Positions 4,462-64,000 of a stretch of 64,000 bases of DNA are shown here, one piece after another. Source of the stretch: Aurantiacibacter zhengii (GTDB lineage: Bacteria > Pseudomonadota > Alphaproteobacteria > Sphingomonadales > Sphingomonadaceae); the NCBI RefSeq assembly GCF_003584125.1, contig NZ_QXFL01000002.1, positions 248,001 through 312,000 on the forward strand. Reading direction: 5' to 3'. Every line of letters begins with the position of its first letter. The first letter of the stretch is position 1. A model generated the notes under the pieces. The model searched no databases and had not been told where the DNA came from. It saw only the letters and a list, made by a program, of their open reading frames with translations. The translations under genes and the position numbers were made by a program.

Positions 4462-4462
4462 C

Positions 4463-7531: not shown

Positions 7532-7590
7532 CGGTGAAGGTGCATCGCAGCCGGAGAGGAGGAAATGGGTGCCGAGGCGGAGGGGAAGGA

Positions 7591-7640
7591 AAGAGGGCCT
7601 CGCGCATCCGGCCACGATGCACTTCCGATGTAGGCCTCTT
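7591..7640. terminator. Possible bidirectional terminator between convergent genes
   Basis: Between the convergent kinase and LOV genes lies an inverted repeat (AGAGGGCCT with AGGCCTCT, one bulged G) around a loop of about 31 nt. There is no strong U tract. The remaining gap (7532-7684) shows nothing else. Confidence 0.25.
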
Positions 7641-7684
7641 ATGGGCAAACGAAATACGGGCTTTGGCCCAGTCGGCGGGTGGGC

Positions 7685-8290: not shown

Positions 8291-8449
8291 TATCTTTCCT
8301 ACCACATCACTCCTTTAGCCCGCATAGTTGCGCAAGGCAAAGACAACAGCCAGACTAATTTTTCACACGGTCAGCATAACGGATTTTGTAACTCCCCAAA
8401 ACAAGCGATCTGTTGCACATTCGACAGAAGCGAGCCGAGCCGGAGACCC

Positions 8450-11090: not shown

Positions 11091-11107
11091 CTTTTGTCAT
11101 CGCCATG

Positions 11108-11141
11108 AAAAAAGGCCCGCCCGCTTTTCCGCGGCCGGGCC
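11108..11141 (-). terminator. Rho-independent terminator of the Slam/FecR operon
   Basis: On the minus strand, 11-nt arms (11114-11124 with 11131-11141, one mismatch) form a GC-rich stem with a 6-nt loop, followed by six T residues (11113-11108). It is placed 60 bp after the stop of the large FecR-domain gene. Confidence 0.8.
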
Positions 11142-11200
11142 AGTCCCCCGTTTCCTCCCCCTCCCCCCGGTATGGCCACCGGGAGGAAGGGGAGCAGAGA

Positions 11201-41824: not shown

Positions 41825-41872
41825 CCTAGGCACCTTGGACTGCGGTCGAATACGACAGTCCTGTGGCTTAGG
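41825..41872. terminator. Imperfect hairpin between convergent genes
   Basis: Imperfect arms of about 17 nt (41825-41842 and 41856-41872), with a perfect GGACTG/CAGTCC core, lie between the transglutaminase-like gene and the stop of the SecA-like gene. There is no U tract; this is a possible bidirectional terminator. Confidence 0.35.
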
Positions 41873-43892
41873 CTGATCCGCTGAAGGCCAGCTGCTCGCG
41901 CAGCTTGTCTTCCGACACCTCCACCTGCCTTCGGACCGATGCATGCTTGCGTTCGGCAGCGCCCTGCGCCCATTGGCGCAACCATTCCGCCGGGCCATTT
42001 TCGATCGGCCAGACCTTGGCAGATCGCCCGACTATCTTCGCAACGGTCCCACCGTAATGGCGATAGAGCTCATCATCGAGAGCCGTGATCGCCTCCGCAC
42101 TGCCAGGGTCGCCTTGCCTGCCCGCGCGCCCGTAAAGCTGGCGGTCGATGCGGGCAGTCTCGTGGAAAGCCGTGAGGATGACGTGCAATCCGCCAGCCTT
42201 GCGCGCTTCCTCCGACAATTCGATATCGGTGCCCCGACCCGCCATGTTGGTGGCGACGGTAACCGCCCCAAGCTGCCCGGCCTGCGCAACCACTCCGGCT
42301 TCCTCCCCGTCCTGCCGCGCATTCAGCAGCCGGTAGGGAATGCCGCGCGCATCCAGCACTGCGGCGACGCTTTCTGAATCGGCGACGGAGCGCGTCCCGA
42401 CAAGGATCGGACGCATGCCTTCCCCCTGCCGGATCACGGCAACGCTGTCTGCCACGGCATGCCATTTCGCTTCCTGGTCGCGGTGCATGGCGTGGCCGCG
42501 ATGCTCGCGGATGCGTGGACGATTGGTGGGCACGGGTTTCACTTTCAGACCGAAGTCGGCCCACAATTCGCCAGCCACTTCGCGCACCGTCCCGCTCATG
42601 CCTGAAAGGCGGCGATAGCGGCGGAAAAATCGCTGGTAGGTGATGCGGGCAATGGTGTTGCGCATACCGGTGAGTTCCACCTGCTCTTTCACTTCCACGA
42701 GCTGGTGCAGGCCGCCTTCCCATGATCGGTCGGCCATGGTGCGCCCTGTGCTTTCGTCGACGATGCTGACCTTCCCGTCCACCACCACGTAGTCGCGGTC
42801 GCGCTGAAAAAGCAGGAGCGCCGACAGTGCCTGGCTGGCCAGTTGTTCGCGCGCCTGGCGGATGCGCCACATACGCTGCGGCAGGCCGGCGGCAAGCTGC
42901 TGCACGGCACGCTTGCCCCGCTCGGAAAGTTCGATGGCGCGATCCGCCATCTTGACCGCGTAATCGCGTCCTTCCTCCAGATGGGTGACCAGTTCCAGTG
43001 CAGACAGATAGAGGCCGTCGTCGTCTGCCGGGATTTCCTGCGAGAGGATCAGCGGCGTGCGCGCCTCGTCGATGAAGATCGAGTCGGCTTCATCCACGAT
43101 TGCGAAATGCAGGCCGCGCATGGTGAGCGGAGATTGCGCCCGTCCGGCCAGCCGCGCGACCCTGCGCCGCGCTGCTCCGCGCGCCTTGCCCAGTTGCGCC
43201 TGGTCGCGCAGGTAATCGAAAGCGATCTCCTTGTTGGTGCCATAAACCACATCGGCCCGGTAGGCGGCCTGGCGCTGCGGTGGCTCCATCCCCTCCACGA
43301 TCAGGCCGGTGGTGAGGCCGAAAAGGTGATAGACAGGCTCCAGCTTGGCAAGGTCTCGTGTCGCCAGATAGTCGTTCACGGTGAACACATGCACCGGGCT
43401 GCCTGCCAGCGAAGCGGTGATCGCGGGCAGCAGCGCGGTGATCGTCTTGCCCTCTCCGGTCGCCATTTCTGCGATACCGCCGGACAGCATCACCAGCCCG
43501 CCCATCAGTTGCACCGGGTAATGTGACAGGCCCAGTTCGCGCCGGGTCGCCTCGCGGATCAGCGCAAGGCATTCATCCACCAGAGGTTCTGCAAGCCCTT
43601 CCCGGCCCAGCTTGCGGCGCATGTCGCGACAGCGGATACGGAACGCCTCGTCACCCATCTCGGCAAGGTCGGTAAAGCCTTCCGCAATCGCAGTTGCGCG
43701 TTCCAGCAGGCGCCCCCTTCCCAGTGGCGGATCGACCATCAGGCGGCCCAGCAGCTTGTCCAGCGGGCGATCCCACTTCCATGGTTTCAGCGGCGCGGCC
43801 TCGGCATAGGGTGCGATACGTGGTCGCTCGTCACTGCGAATCTCGCGCCAGATGTGGGCTGCGCGTTCCGTGAAGGGGGTAGGCTCAGGCAT
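41868..43892 (-). CDS. Short SecA-like translocation ATPase
   Basis: This 674-residue SecA-family DEAD-type ATPase has Walker A EMATGEGKT (about residues 142-150), TVNDYLATRDLA, the VVYGTNKEIAFDYLRD block, Walker B IVDEADSIFIDEARTPLI (about 266), a PPXD-like insertion, and motif V/VI blocks ATNMAGRGTDIEL and YGRAGRQGDPGS. Housekeeping SecA is about 850-900 residues. Here the protein stops about 75 residues after motif VI, so the helical scaffold, two-helix finger, wing domain and zinc tail are largely absent. The ATG at 43892 overlaps the M50-HlyD stop by 8 nt. It looks like a specialised motor for the giant exoprotein encoded in the same operon (inference). Confidence 0.88.
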   Translation of the reverse strand: MPEPTPFTERAAHIWREIRSDERPRIAPYAEAAPLKPWKWDRPLDKLLGRLMVDPPLGRGRLLERATAIAEGFTDLAEMGDEAFRIRCRDMRRKLGREGLAEPLVDECLALIREATRRELGLSHYPVQLMGGLVMLSGGIAEMATGEGKTITALLPAITASLAGSPVHVFTVNDYLATRDLAKLEPVYHLFGLTTGLIVEGMEPPQRQAAYRADVVYGTNKEIAFDYLRDQAQLGKARGAARRRVARLAGRAQSPLTMRGLHFAIVDEADSIFIDEARTPLILSQEIPADDDGLYLSALELVTHLEEGRDYAVKMADRAIELSERGKRAVQQLAAGLPQRMWRIRQAREQLASQALSALLLFQRDRDYVVVDGKVSIVDESTGRTMADRSWEGGLHQLVEVKEQVELTGMRNTIARITYQRFFRRYRRLSGMSGTVREVAGELWADFGLKVKPVPTNRPRIREHRGHAMHRDQEAKWHAVADSVAVIRQGEGMRPILVGTRSVADSESVAAVLDARGIPYRLLNARQDGEEAGVVAQAGQLGAVTVATNMAGRGTDIELSEEARKAGGLHVILTAFHETARIDRQLYGRAGRQGDPGSAEAITALDDELYRHYGGTVAKIVGRSAKVWPIENGPAEWLRQWAQGAAERKHASVRRQVEVSEDKLREQLAFSGSA

Positions 43893-46038
43893 CGAACCGT
43901 GACAGCAACACTTGGCGCAGGCGACGGGTGATCTGCCAGCCCAGCGGTTCCCAATCGAGCTGGAAGCGCACGTGAACGCGCGTGCCGAAGGGCACATCGG
44001 CCAGTTCTGGCGGCAGGGCGATATCGTACAGGAACACCCGTTGCAGCGCCGTGCGCCCCTGCTGGTCACGCGGATCGAGCGGGAACGGTCCGCCATTGCT
44101 GGATGCCAGCGCCGGGCTCGGCAATTCGTGCGTGGCACCGGGAACGGCCCGGATGATCGCGCTTTCGAATGTTTCGCCCGGACGGTTCGCAAGGCGGAAT
44201 TTCACCCCGTTCAGGTGGCCACGGATCAGCTCGAAATCGTCCTGCGAAACGGCGATGCGCGCCATGTCCGCATGACCGGGCGTGACATAGCCGATCAGGT
44301 CGCCGTTCTTCACGAAACGCCCCGGCATGTCGGCCGCCGGTCCTGCCGCAAGGACGAACTGGCCAGACACGCCCGCGTGCAGGTCAAGCTCGCCCAGCCG
44401 CTGCCGACCAACCGCCAGCCGCTCTCCCACTTCCTGTAATTGCAGCGTGCTCACCTCGCGCTCCACCCGGTCGCGGCGAAGCTGGGCATCGGCCTCATGG
44501 CGCAGTTCGGCCATTCGCCAACCAAGGCGCTCCACCTCGGCCTCCAGGATGGGATGCGCGGTCTCGACCAGCAGCTCTCCGGGTTCGACCTGCTGCCCTT
44601 CTCGCGCCGGGATGGCGACGATGGTGCCATCGCCCCGCGCGCGGACCTGCGCGTCCTCCGGCAGCCAGACCACACCCTGCGTGTTGGCATGGTGCGGCGC
44701 GGGCACCACGAACAACATCATTACGCCCGCCGCCACCGCGCCCATCGACCACTGCACGGCCCGGCGGCGGTTGCGGTGCAGTTGCGGGCTGGTGAAGACG
44801 TGGGCGAACATCTTCCAGATCGGCAGGCCGAGCCCCGACCAGATCGTCCACAAGGCGATCAGCACACCGACGATGAAGAACTTTTCCGCCACCATCAGCG
44901 CGATGCCGATCATCATCACCATCCGCGCCACGAAAGCGGCAGGAGCGTAGAAGACGAACCACCATTTCTCGCCGCGGGTGGCGGCATAGGGTTTGTTGGA
45001 ATGGGTGCGAAAAACGTACTTGTCGATCAGGTGCGACCAGTACTTGTTCGAACGCGAGGCGAGATTGGGGATCTCGATAAGGTCGGCCAGGATGTAATAG
45101 CCGTCGAAGCGAAGCAAGGGATTGCCGTTCACCAGCAGCGTCGAAATGCCTGCCACCACCATGGTATTGAACGCCACCGCACGGGCAAAGCCGGGTTCCA
45201 GCAACACCCAGGCAAACATCGCCAGTGCGGCGATGAACACCTCTACGATCATGCCTGCCGCACCGATCAGCGCGCGCTGCCACTTGTCCTTCAGCGCGGC
45301 AGCCGACGACGCCTCTACATAGGGAACCGGGAACATCACCAGTAGCATGATGCCCATCTCGCGGATTTCGCGCCCGTTGGCCTTGGCGACATAACCGTGC
45401 CCCAGCTCGTGCGCGGCTTTCACCACCGGGTAGACAAGTAGCATGATCAGCAGGTTGTCGGTCGCCAGCACGCGGTCCCACAGGTTGCCGGTCAACTCGT
45501 CGTAGTGCTGCCCGGCAAGGAGGATTGCGGGCAGCACCACGGCGAGCCACAGGACCAGCCCCGGCCAACCGAAGACGGGCCTGATCCAGTTTATCGTGCG
45601 GTTGAGAAACGCGTCGGGGTCGATCAGCGGTATGCGAAAGCTCATTGGGCTTTTCAGGTTCTGCATCCACACCTGCCGCCGCTGCTTCTTGCGCCGCTTG
45701 AACAGTTCGGCGGTTTCGGGGGTGACATCGGTGGAGAGCAGGTCGGCAGCGTGCAGCTGGCCCAGCGCGGTGATGATCTCGTCCTGCGTGGGCGCGTCCT
45801 CGCCCAGCCGGTCGACCAGCCCCTCCCACAGCGCGTTGACGGTACTGGTACCGTCGAGCTTGCCGATAAGCAGGTACGCGCCACGCGGGAAACGGTGACC
45901 CCGGCCTGCCGCGCCGTCGTCCAGCACGTACCACACCTCCTTGCGATAGACGTGGCGGCGCACGCGCACGTGACTGCGCAGCCGCGGCTTCAGGTGGGCA
46001 ACGTTGAACCAGCTCGCGCTCTGGAAAGGATTCGCCAT
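43885..46038 (-). CDS. PqqD-like / M50 site-2 protease / HlyD fusion membrane protein
   Basis: This 717-residue protein begins with a PqqD-like winged-helix region (about residues 25-110; WYVLDDGAAGRGHRFP, LLIGKLDGTSTV, LGQLHAADLL). A multi-spanning zinc metalloprotease core follows, with HELGH (His210) inside VVKAAHELGHGYVAKANG and the second metal ligand in NPLLRFDGYYIL (about 311). Several membrane helices run to about residue 450. The C-terminal 260 residues form a HlyD-like adaptor (VVWLPEDAQVRARGDGTIVAI, biotinyl-lipoyl half motifs, long helical hairpin). PqqD-like domains bind peptides, M50 enzymes cut inside membranes, and HlyD domains link inner and outer membrane. The neighbours suggest a processing and export role. 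Confidence 0.88.
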   Translation of the reverse strand: MANPFQSASWFNVAHLKPRLRSHVRVRRHVYRKEVWYVLDDGAAGRGHRFPRGAYLLIGKLDGTSTVNALWEGLVDRLGEDAPTQDEIITALGQLHAADLLSTDVTPETAELFKRRKKQRRQVWMQNLKSPMSFRIPLIDPDAFLNRTINWIRPVFGWPGLVLWLAVVLPAILLAGQHYDELTGNLWDRVLATDNLLIMLLVYPVVKAAHELGHGYVAKANGREIREMGIMLLVMFPVPYVEASSAAALKDKWQRALIGAAGMIVEVFIAALAMFAWVLLEPGFARAVAFNTMVVAGISTLLVNGNPLLRFDGYYILADLIEIPNLASRSNKYWSHLIDKYVFRTHSNKPYAATRGEKWWFVFYAPAAFVARMVMMIGIALMVAEKFFIVGVLIALWTIWSGLGLPIWKMFAHVFTSPQLHRNRRRAVQWSMGAVAAGVMMLFVVPAPHHANTQGVVWLPEDAQVRARGDGTIVAIPAREGQQVEPGELLVETAHPILEAEVERLGWRMAELRHEADAQLRRDRVEREVSTLQLQEVGERLAVGRQRLGELDLHAGVSGQFVLAAGPAADMPGRFVKNGDLIGYVTPGHADMARIAVSQDDFELIRGHLNGVKFRLANRPGETFESAIIRAVPGATHELPSPALASSNGGPFPLDPRDQQGRTALQRVFLYDIALPPELADVPFGTRVHVRFQLDWEPLGWQITRRLRQVLLSRFDA

Positions 46039-46045
46039 GTTCGCC

Positions 46046-47920
46046 TCAGGGCAGCCATTTCCAGAAAAACAGCCGCAGCCAGTCGCGCAGTCCGCGCGTC
46101 CAGATCCACAGGCGGCTGCGGCGATCTACGTCCACCTTGGCCACCCCTTCCAGGCCGGGGCGCAGGATTTCCTTCGCGCCATCGGCCAGTTCGCCTTCCA
46201 CCCGAAAAGTGTTGCTGCCATCCTCCTGCGAGGTGACGGATGTCAGCTTGGTAACCGTGAAGGGCACCGTGCGACCGGCTAGCCCGGTGGGGGCAAAACG
46301 TCCTTCCTGCCCGGGCTGGAGGTAGGAGATATCGCTTTCCGCCACCTGCAGCACCACGCGGAAATCATCCATCGGTGCGACCTCGAACAGTGTCTCGCCC
46401 TCTTCAACCGGAGAGCCGATGAGCTGGCTGACGTCGCCAGACACCAGCACCCCGTCAATGGGCGCGACGATGTTGACGCGTTCCAGCTTGTATTCGATCA
46501 GCCGAAGCTCTGCCTGCGCCTGCCGCAGCTGCGCCCCGAAAAGGTTCATCTCCGAGCGCTCATGGCTGGCCAGCGCCTGGCGATAGCGGCGGTCGAACTG
46601 CTGCACTTCGCTCTGCGCGCGGGCATGGTCCAGCCGCAGGTCGCGGTCGTCCAGCCTCGCAAGAACCTGGCCTGCCACCACCTCGTCCCCCGCCCGCGCA
46701 TCGGAACTGGCGATGAAGCCGGAGAATGGCACGGCAGCGGTGCGCTGCACACGACCTTCCAGCGCGGAATCGGCGCTGACGCGGAACTGCGCAAATGGCA
46801 GCAGCAGGAACAGGAGCAGGATGATAGCAAGCCCGCCCAGCGCCTTTGCCAGCGGGCGGCGCGGGCCGAACATGGCCTTGGCACCATCCATGCCTTTCTT
46901 GCGGATGCGACCGCTCAGCAGCCGCTCCTCGCGGCGCTTTAGCGCGATGGTGGGCGCCACCAGTGCCGCGGCGGTTTCGCACAGTAGCAGTTCTTCCTGC
47001 GAGAACGCTTCGCCTTCCTTGTCCCGCTCCAACAAGAGCACTCCTGTGGGCATGCCGCGATCTTCCAGCATTACCGAGGCAAGCGCCCGGCTGCCCAGCG
47101 CAGTGGCGAGCCGTGCGTGCTGGATGGTGATGTCGGCAGCATCTTCTTCCGCTGCTGGGCAGGCGATGGTGGCACCTTGGTCGAAGGCTTCCTCCATTGC
47201 CGCTTCCAGCGTTTCGGCAAAGTCCGACTTCTTCCGAAACCACGCACCGTGCGACATCGCGGCAAGCTTCACCTTGTCGCCCGCCACCAGGCCAACGGCA
47301 GCGCGATCGGCCTTCAGGATGCGGCATGTCTCGTTGCACAGGGCGAGCACCGCCTCGTCGAGGCTTTCCTCTTCCTGCACGGCGGCAAGAAGCTCCATCG
47401 CCAGAGCCGCGCGTTCACCGCCGTGTTCACGCTCTGCCGCGCGGTATTGCCACACCAGCGAAAGGATCCAGCCGACGCCCCAGTGCAATTCGCGCAGGGC
47501 GGTTTGCAACACGGCGGCGTGGGCTTCCTGCAGGGTCATCACGATGGCGCCATGCGTGCCCTCCCCTGAAACAACCGGATAGGCGATCACCGTCAAACCG
47601 GGCGCATCGGCAACCGGGCCGATCATAGGCTCGCGGTTGTTGAGAACGGCCTCGCCCGCCAGCCGCAGGGGCTCGATGTCGGTTGGCTTGGCAGGCCAAG
47701 CCGCTGCCGGGGCGTAGGCACCGGCCGAGCTTTCGAGAAGGATCAAACCACCCCTGACCCCCGGCGTGCGCGCACATTGCAGCGCCAGCCAGGCGCGGCA
47801 GAACTCGGCAGGCCCGGTGGCGGACGCGAGTGCTGCCCAAAGCGCAGCGTCGTTCCCGGATGAAGAAGCCGTGCCCTCCGCCCGGTTGCCGCCGACAGTC
47901 TGGGCCTTCACTTCCGTCAT
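46046..47920 (-). CDS. GAF-domain HlyD-type membrane fusion protein
   Basis: This is a 624-residue protein. The N-terminal half is cytoplasmic, with one clear GAF-like domain at about residues 185-335 (CNETCRILKADRAAVGLV, VLLLERDKEGEAFSQEE) and probably a second, more diverged one at about 30-160. A transmembrane helix follows at about 360-380 (LGGLAIILLLFLLLPFAQF), then a HlyD-type periplasmic adaptor (about 390-610) with lipoyl half motifs (VPFSGFIASSDARAGDEVVAGQVLARLDD and IVAPIDGVLVSGDVSQ) around a helical hairpin. It lies 72 bp after the giant gene and 7 bp before the M50 gene. The GAF part could sense a ligand and control export; this is inference. Confidence 0.87.
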   Translation of the reverse strand: MTEVKAQTVGGNRAEGTASSSGNDAALWAALASATGPAEFCRAWLALQCARTPGVRGGLILLESSAGAYAPAAAWPAKPTDIEPLRLAGEAVLNNREPMIGPVADAPGLTVIAYPVVSGEGTHGAIVMTLQEAHAAVLQTALRELHWGVGWILSLVWQYRAAEREHGGERAALAMELLAAVQEEESLDEAVLALCNETCRILKADRAAVGLVAGDKVKLAAMSHGAWFRKKSDFAETLEAAMEEAFDQGATIACPAAEEDAADITIQHARLATALGSRALASVMLEDRGMPTGVLLLERDKEGEAFSQEELLLCETAAALVAPTIALKRREERLLSGRIRKKGMDGAKAMFGPRRPLAKALGGLAIILLLFLLLPFAQFRVSADSALEGRVQRTAAVPFSGFIASSDARAGDEVVAGQVLARLDDRDLRLDHARAQSEVQQFDRRYRQALASHERSEMNLFGAQLRQAQAELRLIEYKLERVNIVAPIDGVLVSGDVSQLIGSPVEEGETLFEVAPMDDFRVVLQVAESDISYLQPGQEGRFAPTGLAGRTVPFTVTKLTSVTSQEDGSNTFRVEGELADGAKEILRPGLEGVAKVDVDRRSRLWIWTRGLRDWLRLFFWKWLP

Positions 47921-47992
47921 GGCTGCGCTGGTTGCCCCCTTCGCTTGTACTAACCCGTCAGGGAAGTAGGCGACGCCGGCGCGCGCAGGGGA

Positions 47993-50900
47993 TCAGCTTT
48001 TGGCGGGCTTTTGCTCCTTCGTCCGCTTGCGCTGCGACAAGGCTTCGCGCCCCAGTATCGGCATGGCGACTGCAAACAGGCCAGCGGCACCGATCGCCGT
48101 TAGCGTATCCTCGTCCCCTGCCAGCAACCGCGCGAGGGCGCTTTCCTTGTCCGCGCTACCCGGCAAACTGGCCTGTGCCAGGAAACCGAGAGGCGCTGCA
48201 TCCATGTCGACCACCGATATGTCGGCTGTCGGCGTACTGGCCGCAGGCGCGCCATCGGGCGGCGTCTCGCCCTGATCGGGCATTGCGTCGCTATCTGGCG
48301 CATCGGCGGACGAACCTGCCGCTTCCTGCACCTCGTCTTCCCCGGCGTCTTCTGCATCCGGCTGTTCCGGCATGGTGGATTCGGTCGCGTAGATGGATCC
48401 GCCCCAGGCCGCCACCGCATCCGCCGTGCCGTAAGTGATCTCTGGCATGTCCGCCATCGGTGCAGAACGGGTGATCACCATCGGGCGATCGTCCAGCCCC
48501 AGCGGCTCGATATCGGGCAGCAAGGGATTGGCGAACTGGCGATGATCGACGATGTTGGCAATGAATTCGGGCGGCAAGCCAGACCATGCAGCAAAATCGC
48601 CGTCCATGCCCACGGCCACGCGGGTGATCCACCACAGGTCGGTCGTCGTAAGTACAGCGTCGCCATCGGCATCGCCGTAATAGCCAACCAGTTGCAGCGC
48701 CTCGTCTTGCTCGCTCTGCGTCGGCTGGGCGGCATTGATCATGGTGACATCGACCACCAGCGTCTCGCTGGCACCATAGGGCGCATCGTCTGGAACGCTG
48801 GCATCCAGGCTTACCAGGTGCACCGTACCCGCAGCTATCGGGTCGTCGCTGACAAGCGTGACTGTCAGCAGCGATTTGCCGCCAGCAGCCGGCGATACGC
48901 TCCAGTCCAGCGTCGCGCCCTCGGGCAGGTCGGCCCCGCGTAGCACGCCATCCAGATCGAGCAGCGCCGGATCGAACGTAACGGTGAAGCGCATCGTCTT
49001 AACGCCGCCATCGCTCTGGAAACGGACCTGCAAGCCGTTCTGGTCCTCCAGCGGCACGTCGATATGTTCACCCGGACCGCGCATGAAGTCTGGCAAGCGT
49101 GCGGTGCCCGGTGCCTGCGCGATGTAGCGCAGCGTGGCCATGTAGGCGCCGCCCTGCACTCCATCGCCATCGCCATCCAGCAGGCTTCCGCGATTGGAAG
49201 TGAAGGCGTTGTCGGCCAGCACGAGCGAATACGTATCGTATTGCAGCGCCACGCCATCCGCGCGGGTGATCACCAGCTTGCCCTGCGCCATGTCCATGGC
49301 CACCAGCACGTCGATCTCGCCCGTCAGATCGCCGACAAGCGTGATCTCGGTCGCATCGGCAAGCGGCGGACCAAGCGCCTGGCTGAATTCCACAACCAGC
49401 GCGCCTTCGACAAAGCGGGCGTCCTCTACCTGCAACAGCGGGGCGGGCAATACTGTGACACCCAGCGGATCGGCTGTGAATGTGCCATCCTCGTTACGCA
49501 GCGAGGCGGTGATGGTAACATCGCCTGCACTGGCAAAGACATGGGACAGCACGGTTGCATCGCCGCTGACTGTCTGCACCGCACTGCCATCGCCCCAGTC
49601 GATGACCCACGCCTGCGTCACATCGGCACCGGGATCGCTCGCGCCCAGCGTGATCGAATATGCAAGTCCGGCATCGGCCTCGGCAGCTCCCACCAGTGAC
49701 AGGCTGGGCGCGACATCGGTTACGGCAATGGCAAACGATACCTCGTCGCTATCGCCATCGGGATCGGTCACCCGTATGCGAACGAGGTTCTCGGCATCGC
49801 CATCGGGGGCGAACCAGCTGAATGCGCCGGTCTGGGAAAGCGTGGCACCTTGCGGTGCCTCCACCAGTGTCCACTTTAGCTCGTCCAGCGCGTCGTCCGG
49901 ATCGCTGGCCAGCAGTGAAAGGTTTACCGTCTGCCCCTCGGCCACGGTAACGTCCGGTTGACTGTCCAGTACCGGCGCCTCGTTCGGGATGGCGGCGACC
50001 GATACCGTGAAATTGCGCTGCGAGAACGCTCCGTCAGGATCGGTGACGCGAACCGTAAAGCTTGCATCGCCAAGGGCGTTGGCCGTCCAGGTTACGCGAC
50101 CCTGTGGCGATACTGCGGCACCTTCCGGTCCGCTCACCAGCGTAAAAGTGAGGTCGTCCAGCGCATCGTCCACATCCGAAGCAACAAGCTGCAGATCAAT
50201 TGCAGCGTCTTCGAAGACTTGAATATCGGCGACCGGTGCGAGGATCGGAGCGACATTGGGAACGGGCGCGACCGCAATGATAAAGCTGCGTTCGGCGAAG
50301 GCACCATCGGGATCGGTCACGCGCACGGTGACGGGCTGCTCGCCAAGCGTGTCGGCGGCCCAGATGAAGGAGCCGTCAGCCGATACCTCCGCACCTACAG
50401 GGCCGCTCACCAGAGTGAAGGTGAGATCGCCAAGCGCGTCGTCCGGATCGCTCGCCACCAAGGAGAAGCTTACCGCATCGCCCTGTGTCACGGCAATATC
50501 GGCAACCGGAGCAAGCGACGGCGCCTCGTTCGGGATGGCGGCTACCGATACCGTGAAGCTGCGCTGCGAGAACGCCCCGTCGGGATCGGTCACGCGCACG
50601 GTCACGGGCTGCTCGCCAAGCGTGTCGGCGGTCCAGCTGAAGGTGCCGTCAGCCGATACCTCCGCACCTACAGGGCCGCTCACCAGAGTGAAGGTGAGCT
50701 CGCCAAGCGCATTGTCCGGATCGCTCGCCCCGAGAGCGAAGCTGACCGCATCGCCCCGTGTCACGGCAAGATCGGCAACCGGATCGAGTACCGGCGCTTC
50801 GTTCGGAACGGGCGCAACCGCGACGACAAAGCTGCGTTCGGCAAAAGCACCATCGGGATCGGTAACGCGAACGGTGACGGGTTGCTCGCCCAGCGTGTCG

Positions 50901-56900: not shown

Positions 56901-59900
56901 CCGCCACTGGCACGCGCTATCATCTGGGCGACCTCGGTATAGGCCCCGCCCTCTTCCTCGAATGCCACGTTGTCGAGGCCAAAGCCCAGCTGCATATCGT
57001 GGCTGAGGATGGTGACGCCGTTGTACGGCGCATCGATGGCCTTGGGCTGCAACTGGAACGCGGCGGCTTCGCGCACGTCCTTGCCGACCATCTCGACGCC
57101 CCAGAAATAGTCCTGCCCGCCTGTCATCGCCCGCGCATATTCGGCCGAAACGAAAACCTTCCAGGTCTTGTTGTCGGTATCGCCGGTGCGGATGATATTG
57201 CCGCTTGGCTGCACCAGGTAGGCGCCCGGTTCCAGATCCTGTGATGTGATGATCCGGTTGGGGTTATTGTCGCCCGCTGCCAGCAGCGCCGCGCTGGGAT
57301 CGTCGTCGAAGAAATATCGCGGCGACGGGTCATCGTCCGGCCACATGCCACGACCCGGCGGCAGCGCGCTTACAAAGAAGCGCGTCTTGAGCGGGGTGCC
57401 GTCAGTCGGCAGTTCTATCAGGTTGGTATCGATGTCCCAGTGGAACGTCAGCAATTCCGAATTCTGGTTGAACACGTCTGCCTGCGCGGTGGGCGTGATC
57501 AGTCGCAGGGCATTGATATCCTGCAAGGCGAGGCCTCGACCGTGGCGGGGCACGTCCACCGCCGGCTCATAGAAATCGACCCCGAATGACGGATGATCGA
57601 GCACCACCGTCTTCCACTTGTCGCGCTGGAGCGTGGGAGCGGGATCGATCGCGCGCACCTTCTCGATGTCGAGGATGACGATGTTCCCGACCCCGCGGTA
57701 ATTGGCGTAGAGCTTGTCACCCGAACTATCGATGCGCAGTTCTTCGAGGAAGGCGAGCGGGATCGGGGTGGTGACGCCCACAAGCTCTGCCGCACCAAAC
57801 GGATCGCGAATAACGAGGATTTTCGAACCCCAGGAATAGAGGCTATCGATCGCCTGACCCTTGGCCAGATCGCTCTGCCAGTACTGCGGGGGCAGGCCCC
57901 AGTCGGCGACGAAGGCGTATTCACGGTCCGGCGTAACAGCCACGCCGGAGGCATGGTGGAGGTTTAGGTCGTTGACCCGTCCGATCGAGAAACTTCCCGA
58001 ATCGGTGGTCCGCTTGAGGTCTACTGCCAAGGTGTAGCCGGCCACGGTGAACGGGCGTTCCACAACGCCGGTAGGCTGATCCGTGACACGAGTGGAAACC
58101 GCACGCGGCTTGTTCCCCTCGATCAGAAAATTGAGCGGGTTGTCGCTCAGCACTTCAATGATCTTGAGGCCGGCATCCATGTCCCCGCGCGAAACGAACA
58201 CCATCTTGTCGGGATCGGTAGTGGCCTGGATGTCATAAGGGTCCACGCCGCCATCGATCTTGGCAATAACCTTTCGCCATTTGCGCGAATTGGCGTCCTG
58301 GGAGGCCGGGCGGTCCCCTTCGTCGGTGTTGATGACGATAATCAGGCCCTTGTCCTGATTGCTGCCGTAAGCCCACGGCCGTTTGCCGAACAGTTCGGAC
58401 ACCGGCACCGCAACATACAGGCGGGTGCCATCGGCATTCAGAGACATGCTCGTGATGTGGCCGAATTCATCGCCCTGACTGGTGATGCCCACATCTATGG
58501 CATGGGCGGAATCGCTCAGGACCTTGAGGTAGTTCGGCGAACCGGGATCGATGTCGATCACGTGAACCTTGCCGTACCCGCCAGCGTAAAGGAACTTGTT
58601 GTTCGGATCGACCGCCAGCGCGGTGACATTGCCGCCGGGGATCTCGATCATCTGTATGCCGGGTTTGGTGGCATCGGCATCGTGCTGCTGCAGCGCCAGC
58701 GTATCGATAACCGCGATGCCCTTGTTCGTCGCAGCGAAAGCAGCGCCAAGATCGGTCGTGGTGACGATCTCGTTCACCGAGGCACCAAGGTCGATGTAGT
58801 GGAACAGATAATCCCGTTCCTGCTCGTTCTCGAAATTGCGCTTCAAGTCGATCACTTCGACGCCGCTGGTCGTCCCGGCGAAGCCGAAGGACGCCTTGTT
58901 GTCGACCTTGATCGGCACGCTGCGGATCGTCTCACCCGATCCCGCAGGCGCATCGGTGCGCGGCCTCTCGATGAAGATCTCGCTAGACCCCAGCAGGATG
59001 TTGGGACTGACATTGATCGTGACGACGGCGACGCCGAGGCCCGGTTGGATCGTGACCTGCTCATCGGTCAGTTCGAGTTCGAAGGTCCCTTGGCGTATGA
59101 CGACTTTCAGGTCGTCGATCGGTGCAGTCCCGTTGTCGACAACCATCACCACCTTGGAGCCGCCGCCATCCTGCAGGACCGGGTCGGCGCTGATGATGAC
59201 CGGGGCAAGGTCGCTGCTGGACTGGCTGGAGGGGAACTCGGCAAAGATCGTCCGGTCCTTGCGCAGGGTATTCGCGGTCGGCTCGAGCTGGACGCGCTCG
59301 TATGTGCCGTCTCCCGCCTTGCGGAAGATCTGGATGGCTGCCTTCGTGGCCAGGTCCGGCAACTGCGCGATGGCAAGTCCCAGCCCGGCAAGTCCAAGCC
59401 CCACCGCCGTTCCGGCAAGGCCCCCAGTCGCCGCTATGCCCAGTGCGGGGAAGAAGCAGAAGAAAGTCGCCAGCTTGAACCCGGCATTCACCGACAGTGT
59501 GGGCACCGGTTCGCCGATGCGGCCCACCAGGATGCGACCGTTCTGGGACAGACCCGGGAACGGCGGCGATTTCACACGCGCCATGCCGTCGGCATCGATC
59601 GTGCCGGAATCCAGCACATTCCAGACTTTCACAAGTTCGCCGTTTTCGCCAACCGGCAGTTCCTGCTCGACGAAAATCCACACCTGGTCGCCCACTTCGC
59701 CAGCGCCCGAGGGCACGGGAACGGCGAGTTGCAGGGCATCGGTTATCTCCGCACCCTCCACGGAAAGGTCGAAGGCGCCGACGAAATCGAACAGGTCTGG
59801 CGCGGGCATCGGAATGTCGAGATCCGCTTCGGCCACGGTCTCCACGGTCACCGTGGCATCGCCGGAAAGGGCACCGGGACCGAATGCCAGCTGGATGCCA

Positions 59901-62900
59901 CCAGTATTTTCGATAATGCCACCCTCGGCGGCATTGATGGCCACCGTGTCGCCAACTGCCGCAGGCTTCACCGACACCTGGATCACGTCCTCCCCGCGAG
60001 CGTGGATCACCGTTACCGTCGTGCGCCCTTCGCGAAGGCCGGTCATCATGCCGTTCTCGTCGACGGCTACGATCGAGCTGTCGCCGGAGAGATACAGAGT
60101 GCCTTCTTCCGGATAGTCATCGACATACATGGACCGGGCCGGATCGAGCGAGGCGATGATCTGGCGCGTGCCGCCCGCAGGCAACAGCGTGACGGTGTCG
60201 GGATAGGCATCGAGACCGTAAACCGAGGTGAGGATTTCACTCAATGTCTCGGGCAGGCCCGCGCTGACCACGGTGGCGGCAGAGATATTCCCCCGGCTGA
60301 CCTGGAGATAGGTGGAGCCCGGCCCCACCGGGCGAAGCAAGCCGCCTTCATCCAGCGTTGCCACGGCGGTGTCGCCAACCTTTGCCTCGACATAGGAGTA
60401 GGGCAGGAAGACTTCCGCCTGATCCGCGAATGTGCCGACGAGGCCGATGCGGAACTGCTCGCCGATGGAATTGAATTCCAGGTCGCGCACCTCGAAATCG
60501 ATAGCTGTCAGCGGCGCATCGGAAACATTGATATCGATGACGCCGGCAGCAGATGTGCCGTAACCGTCGTCCGCCGAAACCCGGACGCTGGCCGCCCCAT
60601 CGTAGCCCGCATCGGGCGTAAAAATCAGGCCTCGACCATCGGTGGTAAGCCGGGCCGTGCCGCCGGTCACATCGACGATGCGATAGTAGAGCCGGTCGCC
60701 ATCGGGATCGGTGGCTACCTCGGAAAGGTCTATCCAGGCAGGCAGGTCGATATGGGTCAGGACGTCGGCCAGCTCTTCCGCCAGTTGCGGCGGCAGGTTG
60801 GCAAGGAAGCCGTAGTTGGCCGCCAGCAACTGCCGGTCGGATGCCCCGATCTCGCCGTCACCGTCAATATCACTGCCCTGGGCAGCTGCCGCAAGGGCAG
60901 TGCTGTCGGCGCCGTCCACCCGCCCATCGGCGGTGATGTCGCCTGCAATGCGCAGGTCGAGCGAATAGCCCCCGCTGCCAGTCAGTGTCAGCAGGTTCAG
61001 GCCTGCCGCCTCGATAGCGAAGAGCGATACGGTTTCGCCGCTGCCTTTCTCGCGCGAGAGCAGCCGTGCCCCGGCGATGGCCGCATCGGTATCGCCGGTG
61101 GTCACCACCCTCAGCACGACGATGCCACTCTGGGTCTTGGAAATCTCGCTACTGCGGATCGTGAAGGCAAAAGTTGCCTCGCCTTCCGTCGGTAAGTCGC
61201 CTGTCAGCGGATTACCGGTGAACGCTGCCGCCGTCCCGAGATTGCCGATGATGGGCGCGGTGCTTACCTCGCCATCGGTGCCGTAGGAGATACTACGCCC
61301 GCTGCCCGCACCCGGCAATTCGAGCTCCAGTCCACTCTCGCCATAGGCATAGCGCGTGCCCTCTCCGGTGGAGAGGTTGCGCGTGCCCGCCAGCTTCCCG
61401 GCAGTGTCGTACTCGAACACCACGCTGACCCCGTCGGGCGACGTCAACCGGGTGATGTTCCCTGCCTGGTCGCGTACGAAGGAAAGGGTCTCCCCGCCTA
61501 GCGCGGTGATGCCGCTGTCACCGACAAGCAATGTGCCCGAGGTGGTTTCTATGGCCACGGTGCCGCGGCGGGAATCGATGATAAAGGCCGTGCCGTCGGG
61601 CGATACCAGGCGATAGTCGCTCTCACCGAAGATCGCGGCAGCCGGGTTGTAGGCGATGCCGCTTTCGACGGAGAAGAACTTCGCCCCCACCTGGCGAAGC
61701 TGCACATTTGCGCTTTGTAGCACGTAACCGTGATCGCCATCAGCGACGAAAGCCGGGCGATAGAAGGTCTGCCCGCCGATCACTTCTGCAACTGGTGCAA
61801 AAGTGAATCCGGCACGTTCGCCCGTGGGCAGGGTTAGGTAGACGCGGGTGCCCAGCTCGAATGCGGGCGCGCTGCCATCGGCCGCCAGGCGGTCACCCGC
61901 TGCGCTCTGCACATCCATGTCGATGCCCAGGTAGGACCATTCGCCCGAAATCGAGTCGTAACGGCGCACGAGGTCGAACGGGATGCCGCCAACGGTGCCG
62001 CTGAAATCCGTGCCCTGCGTCACGAGACGGCCGATCTTGTCCTCTCCGGTCAGCAGTTCGATATCGGCGCTGGCCACGCTGGTGCGCCCGGAAATGTCCT
62101 GCGCGGTAAGCCGCAGGGCGTAGAAACCATCGGACAAGCGACGCGGATCGAGATTGCCCAGCACATCGGCCTGGGGACTATCGCCGCGCGCCAGTTCGAC
62201 CACGCTGCCATCGTCGCCCAGCAGTTCGAGCGTCCAGAAATCGAGGTTGGTATCCGCAATCGAGCCGGAAATCGCCAGCGGCTCGCGCACCAGTGCGTCA
62301 GACAGCGTCGTGGCAAGCGAGACGACAGGCGCACTCGTATCCTCCGGATCGCGGACCTTGAGTTCGCGCGTCACGGTGCGTTCGCCGCCATCGGCATCCC
62401 GCACGGTGGCCACCAGCACGTATTTGCCCGGCGCATCCGGCGTGATCGTGGCGCGGCCATTCTCACCGATGGTGACCGGCTGCCCGTCAAGTTGCAGGGT
62501 GGTTTCCACGATCTCGGACAGGCTGTCGGCCTGTACCGTAACCAGAACATCCTGGCTGGGCACCGGTGCGAAGCTGGGTGTCAGCTCGATCCGTACCACC
62601 GGGTCTACCGGTTCCAGCAGCGCGCGCAGCAGGATCACCTTCGGTGTCGTAGTCTTGCCGTCGTCCACCTTCAGGCGGACGACATAGTCGCCAATCTGGC
62701 CGGGCCCCGGTGTCCAGGCAAACTCGCCGGTTTCCGGGTCTATCGTGGCACCTTCGGGCAGGTCGTCGGCGGTGAAAGTCAGCACGTCGTTTACGTCGGC
62801 ATCAGCGGCATCGATGAAGAAGCGCTTTTCCTCACCGATCACGAAGGCATGGAAACCTTCACTGACTACAGGCGCGCGGTTGATGTCCGCCACCCGGATG

Positions 62901-64000
62901 AGGATCTCGATCTCGTCGGTCGCGCCCGACGGATCGACGGCGCGCAATTTCAGCACATGGTCGCCCTGCTGGTCATACCCCGGTGTCCATTGCACTTCGC
63001 CGCGACTGGCGACGAACAGTGCACCTTCGGGAAGGCCGCTGACCACCGAGAGCTGGACCGGATCGCCATCAGGATCGCTGGCAATCGCACGGAACACCAG
63101 GTCGGATCCCTCGCGCACCAGTTGCAGGCCCATGGGAACGAAAATCGGCGCCTGGTTGACGTCCTCCACCGTCAGTTCGACGGTTTCGCTGCTCGACATG
63201 TTGCCGTCGCTTGCCGTGAAGGTCACTTGGTACACGCCGGAGGCGTTGCCAGCAGGCGTCCACGAGAATTCGCCGGTGGCGGGATCCAGAACCGCGCCCG
63301 CCGGCGCACCTGCCATGCTGAAGGTCAACACATCGCCATCGGGATCGCTGCCGCGCAGGGTGAAGGCCAGTTGCTCTCCCTCGAGCACGCTCCTGTTACC
63401 AACCGGTGCAATCTGCGGCCCCGCATTGGCGGCACGCACGACCACGTTGAATACGGCGTTGTCGCTGGCAGGGTCGGTCAGGCCGTTGCCACTGTCGGTA
63501 ACGGTTACGCCGACGGTATAGGTCCCTGCATCGCCAGTGCCGGGGGTGAAACTGAGCAGCGCCCGGCCATAGACCGCAGTGGGCGCGATGGTGGCCCCAG
63601 GCAGGCCGGATACCGCATAGGCCAGCGCATCCTCATCCATGTCGGAAACATCGACGAGAATTTCCGTCGTCTGGCCTATCAGCGCCACGACATCGCCCAG
63701 GTAGGCGATTTCGGGTGCCTCGTTGTCGCTGGTGACGGAGATGTTGAAGACATAGCCACCCGTCAGCGGCTCACCCGTGCCATCGCCATCGTCCGTGGCC
63801 AGCAGAACGATGGTGTAATCGCCGCGCGTGTTCGCGCCGGGGGAAAGGTGCAGCAGGCCGGTGCCATCACCGTTGTCGGTGAACTCGATGAAACCGGGAA
63901 GCGGGCGATAGGGGCTTTCGTTGATCGCCTGCAGCACCAGCGGGTTGCCGTCTGCATCGGTCGCGCTGACGGGGATGTCCACTGTGCTGCCACGCGCGAT
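47993..64000 (-). CDS. Giant multidomain exoprotein, 5' end beyond the window
   Basis: At least 5335 residues, with the frame open to the window edge; the GTG at 63982 is internal. From the N-terminal side: cadherin/Ig-like repeats (62400-64000), an RHS-like region (61200-62045), a dockerin-like EF-hand pair (60800-60960), Big_2-like (59960-60260) and ZU5-like (59500-59950) domains, an internal hydrophobic stretch (about 59340-59480), a YVTN-type propeller (57550-58850), a hydrolase-like region with GHGRG (56400-57000), a jelly-roll-like region (55500-55700), an OmpA-like domain (54230-54600), a metzincin-like HELGHAVGIED site (about 53735-53765), a tandem-95-type repeat (52725-52995), eleven Ig-like repeats, PKD, cohesin-like and dockerin-like domains, an acidic linker, a hydrophobic segment and a basic tail. 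The native ligand is unknown. Confidence 0.88.
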   Translation of the reverse strand: MARGSTVDIPVSATDADGNPLVLQAINESPYRPLPGFIEFTDNGDGTGLLHLSPGANTRGDYTIVLLATDDGDGTGEPLTGGYVFNISVTSDNEAPEIAYLGDVVALIGQTTEILVDVSDMDEDALAYAVSGLPGATIAPTAVYGRALLSFTPGTGDAGTYTVGVTVTDSGNGLTDPASDNAVFNVVVRAANAGPQIAPVGNRSVLEGEQLAFTLRGSDPDGDVLTFSMAGAPAGAVLDPATGEFSWTPAGNASGVYQVTFTASDGNMSSSETVELTVEDVNQAPIFVPMGLQLVREGSDLVFRAIASDPDGDPVQLSVVSGLPEGALFVASRGEVQWTPGYDQQGDHVLKLRAVDPSGATDEIEILIRVADINRAPVVSEGFHAFVIGEEKRFFIDAADADVNDVLTFTADDLPEGATIDPETGEFAWTPGPGQIGDYVVRLKVDDGKTTTPKVILLRALLEPVDPVVRIELTPSFAPVPSQDVLVTVQADSLSEIVETTLQLDGQPVTIGENGRATITPDAPGKYVLVATVRDADGGERTVTRELKVRDPEDTSAPVVSLATTLSDALVREPLAISGSIADTNLDFWTLELLGDDGSVVELARGDSPQADVLGNLDPRRLSDGFYALRLTAQDISGRTSVASADIELLTGEDKIGRLVTQGTDFSGTVGGIPFDLVRRYDSISGEWSYLGIDMDVQSAAGDRLAADGSAPAFELGTRVYLTLPTGERAGFTFAPVAEVIGGQTFYRPAFVADGDHGYVLQSANVQLRQVGAKFFSVESGIAYNPAAAIFGESDYRLVSPDGTAFIIDSRRGTVAIETTSGTLLVGDSGITALGGETLSFVRDQAGNITRLTSPDGVSVVFEYDTAGKLAGTRNLSTGEGTRYAYGESGLELELPGAGSGRSISYGTDGEVSTAPIIGNLGTAAAFTGNPLTGDLPTEGEATFAFTIRSSEISKTQSGIVVLRVVTTGDTDAAIAGARLLSREKGSGETVSLFAIEAAGLNLLTLTGSGGYSLDLRIAGDITADGRVDGADSTALAAAAQGSDIDGDGEIGASDRQLLAANYGFLANLPPQLAEELADVLTHIDLPAWIDLSEVATDPDGDRLYYRIVDVTGGTARLTTDGRGLIFTPDAGYDGAASVRVSADDGYGTSAAGVIDINVSDAPLTAIDFEVRDLEFNSIGEQFRIGLVGTFADQAEVFLPYSYVEAKVGDTAVATLDEGGLLRPVGPGSTYLQVSRGNISAATVVSAGLPETLSEILTSVYGLDAYPDTVTLLPAGGTRQIIASLDPARSMYVDDYPEEGTLYLSGDSSIVAVDENGMMTGLREGRTTVTVIHARGEDVIQVSVKPAAVGDTVAINAAEGGIIENTGGIQLAFGPGALSGDATVTVETVAEADLDIPMPAPDLFDFVGAFDLSVEGAEITDALQLAVPVPSGAGEVGDQVWIFVEQELPVGENGELVKVWNVLDSGTIDADGMARVKSPPFPGLSQNGRILVGRIGEPVPTLSVNAGFKLATFFCFFPALGIAATGGLAGTAVGLGLAGLGLAIAQLPDLATKAAIQIFRKAGDGTYERVQLEPTANTLRKDRTIFAEFPSSQSSSDLAPVIISADPVLQDGGGSKVVMVVDNGTAPIDDLKVVIRQGTFELELTDEQVTIQPGLGVAVVTINVSPNILLGSSEIFIERPRTDAPAGSGETIRSVPIKVDNKASFGFAGTTSGVEVIDLKRNFENEQERDYLFHYIDLGASVNEIVTTTDLGAAFAATNKGIAVIDTLALQQHDADATKPGIQMIEIPGGNVTALAVDPNNKFLYAGGYGKVHVIDIDPGSPNYLKVLSDSAHAIDVGITSQGDEFGHITSMSLNADGTRLYVAVPVSELFGKRPWAYGSNQDKGLIIVINTDEGDRPASQDANSRKWRKVIAKIDGGVDPYDIQATTDPDKMVFVSRGDMDAGLKIIEVLSDNPLNFLIEGNKPRAVSTRVTDQPTGVVERPFTVAGYTLAVDLKRTTDSGSFSIGRVNDLNLHHASGVAVTPDREYAFVADWGLPPQYWQSDLAKGQAIDSLYSWGSKILVIRDPFGAAELVGVTTPIPLAFLEELRIDSSGDKLYANYRGVGNIVILDIEKVRAIDPAPTLQRDKWKTVVLDHPSFGVDFYEPAVDVPRHGRGLALQDINALRLITPTAQADVFNQNSELLTFHWDIDTNLIELPTDGTPLKTRFFVSALPPGRGMWPDDDPSPRYFFDDDPSAALLAAGDNNPNRIITSQDLEPGAYLVQPSGNIIRTGDTDNKTWKVFVSAEYARAMTGGQDYFWGVEMVGKDVREAAAFQLQPKAIDAPYNGVTILSHDMQLGFGLDNVAFEEEGGAYTEVAQMIARASGGGVVLRYEKETGDWVDISDSSRRNAGALVPGQAVVLLTDWNKESDITDTGFAEAAGDAFFASLVALNQESGGNIFKSPLHFIGHGRGAVVNSEIIQRLGTYFPNAGGEYGIHMTTLDPHDFLQETLAVPLDTLAQLAVQGAGVIVSLLAPSVGKKLIEFGNKVPELFDLAAFLGLKLNPIQFQNFSDPSVQVWNNVTFADNYYQTLARAETTDLPVGDTLRRLSFTLTANGRSLTANPFSSFASNEDLLKFRQENPAAAATSADLEIHLNGRSGFTQDDVGFGPFSIGVGGPHSRVFEWYAGTIDTSIDNLNGYPIYRRVTDDGKGTLSLIIPTENFGQVPWYQVVPSKVTAGRPATTYESTPNKNVWEGIGTGWYYSAAGGGAPYRTSTGERVNVAYDNSQAPRGDAAVPTVFNGDFELGIRNSFYNFLVQGGNANNSVFEEATFGRYPLAYELPGWSFHGGGGFKIDFGDWIGEVDVTGMFAVQTNPGQLGADVFARLMDTAGKKFLDDYLRGKMLQKTGFKPPPSEPGTDAYNRWELEMLVTNPDAIAKRSAYEHLLKVVNVVDDLIKAAIDAGAVFGDFDVAGFIGKSSNPSSDEFDGFREVIKKAFEALIGEQTSNYALMFGGTAAVKAILNGIVEIIGFQIGSETSGLAAKVTQALNKFIDETSDFSTLTHNRMVVPPTANKLQLEIKTPWLLTPNARVLVRMTNATTDQVVVEQPIELDLGFWKTNNIVVDVPAALRGQVVKLEIISVAAEEILEEFNPWSYPAGVDNKVFFENDERTLAQLADKPGELAALEQQAKWVFEHPDAQVQIFGYADPNGTYEYNKQLAADRAQAVTHYIRQYLIDRGDDPSRVLDPVSFGETNAVEIPGGTVEDYAVERRTEMLVRERQVIISADPDPSFAIGDAISQVFLLDKVRFTLVTSGSPLELDPAGEVPVDVTSSTLAQMEAVIEAAKQEWLDDGVYANLENIFDNITFEVRDLGDNALATFEDGLLVIDDDAGGYGWFIDATPAESSEFTQGAAGHLFDALESSEAAGRVDLFTVVLHELGHAVGIEDIPATLDARLMSATIGLGERRFYSELDEVGVVGETMTFDPGDNPLVQLQGGQGGFLAGAPRAPQIAPLYTLGAPAVTPLQNGDFSAAQGWQAVGGGSVSGGAGVLAEDSRFFSSLRQGFAIPADAQTLSFTLDVAGLGSEEGLPPDAFEVALIDPVTGESLLGAMGGLDLSDAFLNLQADGSLYVAPGVAVSGDPLAGPVVVTISLGAIDAVNGALLSFDLIAQGALDSLVTVDNIAFGTTEVNFPPIALDDSASLDEDGTVLLDLLANDTDPEGDPLALTVDTQPANGTLVLEGGLYRYTPDENFFGTDSFSYSVTDNIGGRASADVTITVNPVNDDPVIGAVADLNVLRDNDVNLTLTATDIDDAPAALVYTLIDGPAGASVSPEGQFAWTATGTGPQTVTVQVADAAGAVSQTSFVIAVTPPDNQPPAIDPVAQQAVTEGDELVVVLTGSDPDDAQGDLVFSLVSGPAGATVSPSGTFRWTATGTAEAQQVTVRVTDPDGAFAQTTFDIAVTLLATNTPPTLAPVNDAAVVQGDTVILVLTGSDAEDDDTTLTYSLVTGPAGAAVSADGTFSWVASGTGDNAVTVRVTDSEGLFAERTFVIAVAAPANQPPVIDAVSNRAVTEGDAIAFSLSASDPDDDAGDLTFALVSGPGGATVTPIGEFAWTADAVGDQSFTVSVTDPDGASDTVTFTISVAELVNASPVLSVVGNLAVTQGDEIAFDLEASDPDDPLDTLVFSLVSGPAGIAVSNDGRFTWTADILGDQPVTVRVSDQAGNTAERSFVISVAPVPNEAPVLAPIGNVNATQGDVLEFQLAASDADDAIGDLTFALVSGPAGAAVSPTGRLTWTAAGLGDAAFTVRVTDPDGALDEGSFIVTVAAVPNEGPVLDPVADLAVTQGDAVSFALGASDPDNALGELTFTLVSGPVGAEVSADGTFSWTADTLGEQPVTVRVTDPDGAFAERSFVVAVAPVPNEAPVLDPVADLAVTRGDAVSFALGASDPDNALGELTFTLVSGPVGAEVSADGTFSWTADTLGEQPVTVRVTDPDGAFSQRSFTVSVAAIPNEAPSLAPVADIAVTQGDAVSFSLVASDPDDALGDLTFTLVSGPVGAEVSADGSFIWAADTLGEQPVTVRVTDPDGAFAERSFIIAVAPVPNVAPILAPVADIQVFEDAAIDLQLVASDVDDALDDLTFTLVSGPEGAAVSPQGRVTWTANALGDASFTVRVTDPDGAFSQRNFTVSVAAIPNEAPVLDSQPDVTVAEGQTVNLSLLASDPDDALDELKWTLVEAPQGATLSQTGAFSWFAPDGDAENLVRIRVTDPDGDSDEVSFAIAVTDVAPSLSLVGAAEADAGLAYSITLGASDPGADVTQAWVIDWGDGSAVQTVSGDATVLSHVFASAGDVTITASLRNEDGTFTADPLGVTVLPAPLLQVEDARFVEGALVVEFSQALGPPLADATEITLVGDLTGEIDVLVAMDMAQGKLVITRADGVALQYDTYSLVLADNAFTSNRGSLLDGDGDGVQGGAYMATLRYIAQAPGTARLPDFMRGPGEHIDVPLEDQNGLQVRFQSDGGVKTMRFTVTFDPALLDLDGVLRGADLPEGATLDWSVSPAAGGKSLLTVTLVSDDPIAAGTVHLVSLDASVPDDAPYGASETLVVDVTMINAAQPTQSEQDEALQLVGYYGDADGDAVLTTTDLWWITRVAVGMDGDFAAWSGLPPEFIANIVDHRQFANPLLPDIEPLGLDDRPMVITRSAPMADMPEITYGTADAVAAWGGSIYATESTMPEQPDAEDAGEDEVQEAAGSSADAPDSDAMPDQGETPPDGAPAASTPTADISVVDMDAAPLGFLAQASLPGSADKESALARLLAGDEDTLTAIGAAGLFAVAMPILGREALSQRKRTKEQKPAKS
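48570..49100 (-). other. Cohesin-like plus dockerin-like module in the giant exoprotein
   Basis: Towards the C-terminus, a beta-sandwich region with LQVRFQSDGGVKTMRFTV and DPALLDLDGVLRG resembles cohesin. It is followed directly by an EF-hand-type segment DADGDAVLTTTDLWWITRVAVG, typical of one dockerin half. The combination in one chain could allow self-association or calcium-dependent assembly. Confidence 0.6.
49711..52720 (-). repeat. Eleven tandem Ig-like (He_PIG-type) repeats of 91 aa
   Basis: The repeats share NxAPVLxPVxDxAVTQGDxVxF, LTFTLVSGPxGAxVSxxGxFxWTA and TVRVTDPDGAFxxRSF cores, with a period of about 273 bp. Conserved Asp residues (SDPDD, VTDPDG) suggest calcium-bound rigid linkers. 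The array would form a stalk of about 1000 residues. Confidence 0.88.
50258..51076 (-). repeat. Three nearly identical 273-bp units inside the Ig-like array
   Basis: Units starting at 51076, 50803 and 50530 (minus strand) share long identical stretches. For example, a block of over 70 bases around 50624 recurs at 50897, exactly 273 bp away, and in slightly altered form at 50351. This indicates recent duplication or gene conversion. Confidence 0.85.

Follow-up and report, generated by a model that had tools for sequence, protein, structure and literature searches.

A probable type I-like secretion system with a short SecA-family ATPase in Aurantiacibacter zhengii, and a 12,886-residue LEPR-XLL protein as its likely cargo

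The 64,000-nt window analyzed here (positions 248,001 to 312,000 of contig NZ_QXFL01000002.1 in the 3.8 Mb genome of Aurantiacibacter zhengii; G000:C12:248001-312000) contains four minus-strand open reading frames (ORFs) of an operon that, in our judgement, quite probably includes a complete set of genes dedicated to the type I-like secretion of a giant LEPR-XLL protein of 12,886 amino acids (aa). The cassette of small genes is already known from the work of Kamneva, Poudel and Ward in 2015 (PMC4452313), and the novelty lies in a likely cargo for it. Recomputation of the ORF coordinates confirmed the arrangement described in an earlier reading of the sequence alone, with all four genes on one strand, intergenic spacers of 72 and 7 bp, and an 8-nt overlap, in which the PqqD-M50-HlyD and short SecA genes share ATGCCTGA:

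47993..64000, minus strand: 3' part of the giant LEPR-XLL exoprotein gene (residues ~7552-12886 of 12,886), with the 5' end outside the window
46046..47920, minus strand: GAF-HlyD membrane fusion protein, 624 aa (Pfam GAF, GAF_3, HlyD_3, HlyD_D23)
43885..46038, minus strand: PqqD-M50-HlyD fusion, 717 aa (Pfam Peptidase_M50, HlyD_3; alignments; Foldseek)
41868..43892, minus strand: short SecA-family ATPase, 674 aa (Pfam SecA_DEAD, SecA_PP_bind, P-loop_SecA)

The contig scan with the M50-HlyD alignment retrieved at least 583 relatives, the best 80 of which were kept as related loci. GAF-HlyD precedes M50-HlyD in 77 of the 80 and the short SecA follows in 76; both neighbors are present in 73. At six of the seven loci that deviate, the contig ends too early, while L110 has room for a SecA gene yet shows none; the SecA scores are weak at L136 (104 bits), L139 (89 bits) and the contig-cut L082 (115 bits). 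The four genes recur in a congener (G012), where the giant measures 12,889 aa and shows 95% identity. Only three of the 37 genomes of the genus, including that of A. zhengii, carry a close M50-HlyD, and the locus is therefore patchy.

The giant is represented by one unbroken frame, the 5' end of which lies at contig position 334653, 22.7 kb beyond the window edge, and its translation probably starts at Met41. This residue is followed by a basic stretch and then by the motif IEALEPRLLLNAE; the corresponding region (frame residues 86-106) matches the NCBIfam family LEPR-XLL (NF012209) with 20.5 bits, above the curated cut-off of 17, a feature the giant shares with LEPR-XLL proteins and no other frame of the genome shows. 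No Sec-like hydrophobic N-terminus was found in residues 41-130 (19-residue maximum: 0.62), and two of the three cysteines in the frame precede Met41. The part inside the window contains He_PIG, Big_9, Cadherin, PKD and OmpA domains and the upstream part CARDB, Laminin_G_3 and PPC (Pfam); in all, the giant carries three Laminin_G_3 and ten CARDB stretches, many Ig- and cadherin-like domains and one OmpA domain, in scans that leave out residues ~7551-7887 (Pfam) and ~2885-7887 (NCBIfam). The longest LEPR-XLL open frame in our list of Pseudomonadota reaches 19,427 aa (G121:C115:112865).

We hold with high confidence that LEPR giants are genetically tied to the cassette. Among 398 genomes of Pseudomonadota, 94 were positive for M50-HlyD (E-value <= 1e-5) and 84 for LEPR (E-value <= 0.05; 82 above the cut-off). 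Counted with M50-HlyD at E <= 1e-30, LEPR at E <= 0.05 and a LEPR frame of >=600 aa, 64 genomes possess both, 25 only M50-HlyD, three only LEPR and 306 neither (p = 3e-49); when LEPR is instead taken at E <= 0.003 without a length limit, the respective numbers are 48, 41, 2 and 307. Collapsed to 212 genera, they become 37 with both, nine with M50-HlyD only, none with LEPR only and 166 with neither. The relationship recurs in a sample of 245 genomes around the Nitrospira genome G470 (M50-HlyD E <= 1e-20, no frame-length filter), with LEPR in 28 of 40 genomes that have M50-HlyD vs 7 of 205 that do not. The carriers from Planctomycetes, Verrucomicrobia and Chlorobi reported in 2015 lie outside these samples. 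Among 14 control genomes, only that of Deinobacterium chartae gave a LEPR match above the cut-off.

The association also holds at closer range. For 47 of the 80 loci the whole genome was scanned (46 genomes in total); 42 of these genomes have a LEPR-XLL frame above the curated cut-off, and one of the remaining four has a variant LEAR frame in the locus (L115). In the Pseudomonadota genomes, 42 pairs of M50-HlyD and LEPR genes lie <=60 kb apart. Of the 45 loci in which the M50 gene is flanked by >=7 kb on each side, 30 have an adjacent giant or LEPR frame, in a strict count that includes 26 hand-picked giant frames; at some of the other 15 (L101, L119, L120) a long frame stops at a greater distance upstream, separated by TolC, and was not counted. 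The strict LEPR pattern occurs only 11 times in the 1.55 million residues of all frames from the 80 loci, each time 16-116 residues from the start of a long or locus-truncated frame. Homologues of the small genes are thus found mostly in the company of a giant, and the link proposed in the sequence-only reading is supported by gene association; the secretion and processing of the giant, which it had proposed as well, we continue to infer. On this sequence evidence, the LEPR giants are likely to be the cargo of the cassette.

Upstream of the giant, on the same strand and in 5' to 3' order, there are genes for a third HlyD protein (324 aa; Pfam HlyD_D23/HlyD_3), an OEP/TolC protein (494 aa; C12:338021-339226), an extracytoplasmic function (ECF) sigma factor and a Ser/Thr kinase (809 aa). 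The TolC gene is linked to the giant's operon, and we rejected the possibility that TolC is missing from the locus: it lies past the window edge. The earlier statement that the window has neither an ABC transporter nor TolC holds within C12:248001-312000, where no OEP/TolC match was found, but TolC and the third HlyD are linked just beyond. As for the ABC ATPase (PF00005), there is no match within the window or <=78 kb of the operon, the closest matches on the same contig being at 57.7-59.1 kb and 418.8 kb. Across the 80 related loci, a single-sequence search, in which divergent TolCs go undetected, revealed the third HlyD at 54 and TolC at 14; of 20 stretches lying 5' of LEPR starts, seven contain the third HlyD, six TolC and seven neither.

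The locus therefore has a HlyD-type fusion protein and a TolC-type factor, as expected of a type I system, and lacks a linked ABC motor. LapA is a giant adhesin of type I secretion, and the systems for such proteins (SiiE, LapA) resemble the one described here in their HlyD adaptors, TolC, and giant, repeat-rich cargo without a Sec signal; they differ in that here a SecA-family ATPase and an M50 membrane protease are found instead of the linked ABC transporter, and in that the signal is apparently N-terminal. Could the giant be moved by a conventional type I ABC exporter encoded elsewhere, with the cassette only processing or anchoring it? The genome does contain other OEP genes and ABC ATPases, including OEP and ABC matches (the latter in a 589-aa frame) 1.4 kb apart on contig C10; given the lack of PF00005 around the operon and the presence of a TolC, adaptors and an ATPase in the locus itself, we regard this as highly improbable.

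The short SecA matches SecA_DEAD with 320 bits and has no match to SecA_SW at E <= 0.01 (Pfam). It aligns to the SecA core (3jv2, residues 34-609) and stops 232 residues before the end of the canonical SecA, which the genome encodes separately along with a single SecY. In a set of 71 short SecAs (this one and 70 of the 76 found), the Walker A motif, the DEAD/DEVD box and the paired arginines are conserved in 70-71 members, and 69 of the 70 others end <=2 residues from the end of the A. zhengii protein, while one ends earlier. The protein scores a median of 494 bits (373-813) against these 70 vs 380 bits against the canonical SecA of its own genome. Such a fixed truncation, combined with an intact ATPase, would be compatible with a motor that departs from the usual mode of SecY use.

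A second SecA-family ATPase beside the housekeeping one is also found in SecA2 accessory Sec systems, and the combination of two SecAs with one SecY is that of SecA2-only systems. The short SecA could accordingly act like a SecA2 and deliver the giant to the housekeeping SecYEG, leaving only the passage from the periplasm to the outside to HlyD and TolC. We consider this unlikely: the C-terminal regions of canonical SecA reach into SecY, and the 232 lost residues include such regions, the end point is nearly invariant among the short SecAs, and the giant is devoid of a Sec-like hydrophobic N-terminal stretch. Models of SecA2 do score 379-519 bits on the short SecA, though all of them remain under their cut-offs (the best 518.6 bits vs 1085, and the three others also below theirs). 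The C-terminal truncation, the lack of a SecY2 and the common location with HlyD and TolC genes further distinguish the protein from SecA2, although the multi-phylum secondary SecA clade was placed beside actinobacterial SecA2 by Kamneva and coworkers (PMC4452313).

There is also a second class of loci. We analyzed 20 stretches of 14-19 kb (L235-L254) around distant M50-HlyD genes (25-31% identity), of which 17 have a further HlyD-like frame beside M50-HlyD, about half have LEPR-like starts inside the stretch, five contain OEP (four by Pfam, one by search) and one contains an ABC-like frame (L236). No SecA was found in any of the 20, which weakens the case for SecA being essential to LEPR export in general. 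The LEPR frames adjoining class II genes are shorter (median 3246 aa, n=17, vs 8068 aa, n=18; p = 6e-5), a difference that may be affected by contig breaks. Their LEPR motif, identified with one pattern for both classes, ends in D-A or D-G instead of S-A-D (1/5 vs 10/10 when the classes are compared with another filter), so the form of the motif matches the class of the M50 protein. SecA may thus be an extra motor for larger cargo, or else class II loci rely on one that is encoded elsewhere.

The GAF, HlyD, M50 and SecA domains reported in the sequence-only reading were all recovered as Pfam matches in the three small proteins. Their subdivision is as follows:

46949..47365, minus strand: GAF domain of GAF-HlyD, residues 186-324 (GAF_3 34.5 bits, GAF 33.2 bits)
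46154..46756, minus strand: HlyD adaptor region of GAF-HlyD, residues 389-589 (HlyD_3 58.1 bits, HlyD_D23 50.4 bits)
45715..46038, minus strand: N-terminal PqqD/RRE-like domain of PqqD-M50-HlyD, residues 1-108 (predicted fold)
45397..45411, minus strand: HELGH of the M50 protease, residues 210-214 (alignment)

In PqqD-M50-HlyD both the HExxH and the downstream aspartate motif of M50 metalloproteases are present, and residues H210, E211, H214, N306, P307 and D312 are invariant in 32 and in 47 aligned sequences. Sphingobium indicum has the closest named M50-HlyD among the matches listed (62%). In a metagenome-assembled genome of Desulfuromonas, the M50-HlyD frame (L132:5440-7548) contains one in-frame stop. 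Since the Foldseek search with the full model listed adaptor proteins (MexA, MacA and AcrA among the matches listed), the N-terminal domain was folded alone. The predicted fold, with three strands and three helices, matches structures of PqqD and of RREs, i.e. recognition elements of ribosomally synthesized and post-translationally modified peptides (RiPPs) (Foldseek, VIA-align), and resembles RREs solved with a leader peptide. The PqqD domain claimed earlier is supported by this model, in which the first domain of the M50 protein takes on a fold similar to those of PqqD and of RREs that bind leaders; Pfam gave no PqqD match at E <= 0.01.

PqqD/RRE and M50 domains both occur in RiPP systems, and the M50 part resembles the daptide metalloprotease family (NF041824; 136.7 bits, under the cut-off of 300), in which a PqqD/RRE-like domain is likewise joined to an M50 protease. 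In our protein, however, an HlyD region is fused as well, and the linked proteins have thousands of residues and are not small peptides. That the small genes form a regulated export and maturation system for RiPP-type peptides, next to which the giant is a mere neighbor, seems to us very doubtful in view of the genome-wide link to LEPR in two phylum samples and by genus, and of the correspondence between the LEPR motif form and the M50 class, which ties the cassette to LEPR proteins, a judgement reached without a systematic search for small precursor genes.

We propose the following mechanism, in the details of which our confidence is evenly divided. The giant would be made without a Sec signal peptide, with a short basic leader bearing the LEPR-XLL motif, and the leader would be bound by the PqqD/RRE-like domain of PqqD-M50-HlyD, presumably located in the cytoplasm. 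The short SecA, with the ATPase core intact and the wing and two-helix-finger end lost, could dock at this complex in place of an ABC transporter and push the chain of the giant, while the M50 part may form or line the inner-membrane passage and would probably cut the leader. From there, the chain would cross the periplasm and the outer membrane by way of three HlyD-type adaptors and the linked TolC, to reach the cell surface or the extracellular space. The GAF domain, the ECF sigma factor and the kinase are likely regulators. More tentatively still, with slightly less than balanced confidence, we suggest that this is a widespread one-step ABC-less system powered by a truncated SecA, in which proteins of up to ~15,000 residues pass through RRE-M50-HlyD and TolC, a RiPP-type domain reads the LEPR-XLL leader, which would then be a new type of secretion signal, and a related SecA-unlinked branch serves smaller cargo.

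Kamneva, Poudel and Ward (PMC4452313) described loci in which a secondary SecA_DEAD gene, without all or most of SecA_SW, is accompanied by M50/HlyD and GAF/HlyD genes, a further HlyD/biotin_lipoyl protein and sometimes an OEP gene, and which probably spread by horizontal transfer. All these components, including the second SecA_DEAD protein without a SecA_SW match, are present here, and the idea that the gene set had never been seen before was dropped; of the earlier remark that no named system has this set, the absence of a name stands, but the cassette is published, without a cargo. According to that paper, SecA could provide ATPase activity and M50 the pore, with a broader role "completely unknown"; its main text names no cargo and makes no mention of LEPR, cadherin, adhesin or "large protein". 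Relative to the account given there, the present analysis differs in linking LEPR giants as likely cargo, in the RRE-like domain suggested by the predicted fold and in the second class without linked SecA. Full-text searches of open-licence PMC papers retrieved neither an export route for LEPR-XLL proteins nor a paper joining the cassette to any cargo; the term LEPR-XLL itself turned up in two papers, once in each. Joining the 2015 locus to the LEPR-XLL proteins makes both testable in common laboratory strains. If the proposal is true, Gram-negative bacteria employ SecA-family motors independently of the Sec channel, and leader recognition of the RiPP type has been recruited for the export of some of the largest bacterial proteins.

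The regulatory genes lie between TolC and the giant:

L006:8723-11820 (contig 334723-337820), same strand as the giant: Ser/Thr kinase and ECF sigma factor

A single-sequence search of the 80 loci and of the 20 stretches upstream found neither of them, and because they were not found at the other loci examined, we did not count them as core. Upstream of the giant of G012 there are two frames, the ends of which match the kinase (C-terminal end) and TolC.

Two further features were noted in the giant itself:

48050..48121, minus strand: C-terminal hydrophobic stretch followed by a basic tail, ~residues 12845-12868, like a sorting signal
53741..53755, minus strand: HELGH zinc-protease-like motif, residues 10967-10971, one copy

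The C-terminal tail is similar in the congeners G012 and G034, but it was rejected as a general feature, as most carriers outside the genus do not have it. I/V-D/N-W and W-x-x-D-F-V motifs recur close to the C-termini of cassette-adjacent giants, e.g. at L102, L104 and L142. The form I/V/M-D/N-W, chosen post hoc, occurs near the C-terminus in 11 of the 26 hand-picked giants (which exclude 8 of 34 upstream frames that end far from the GAF gene or look spurious) vs 31 of 503 internal windows, and is a possible second signal, to be taken only as a lead. On the other side of the operon, two transglutaminase-like genes (40038-41809) lie on the opposite strand, convergent with the SecA gene.
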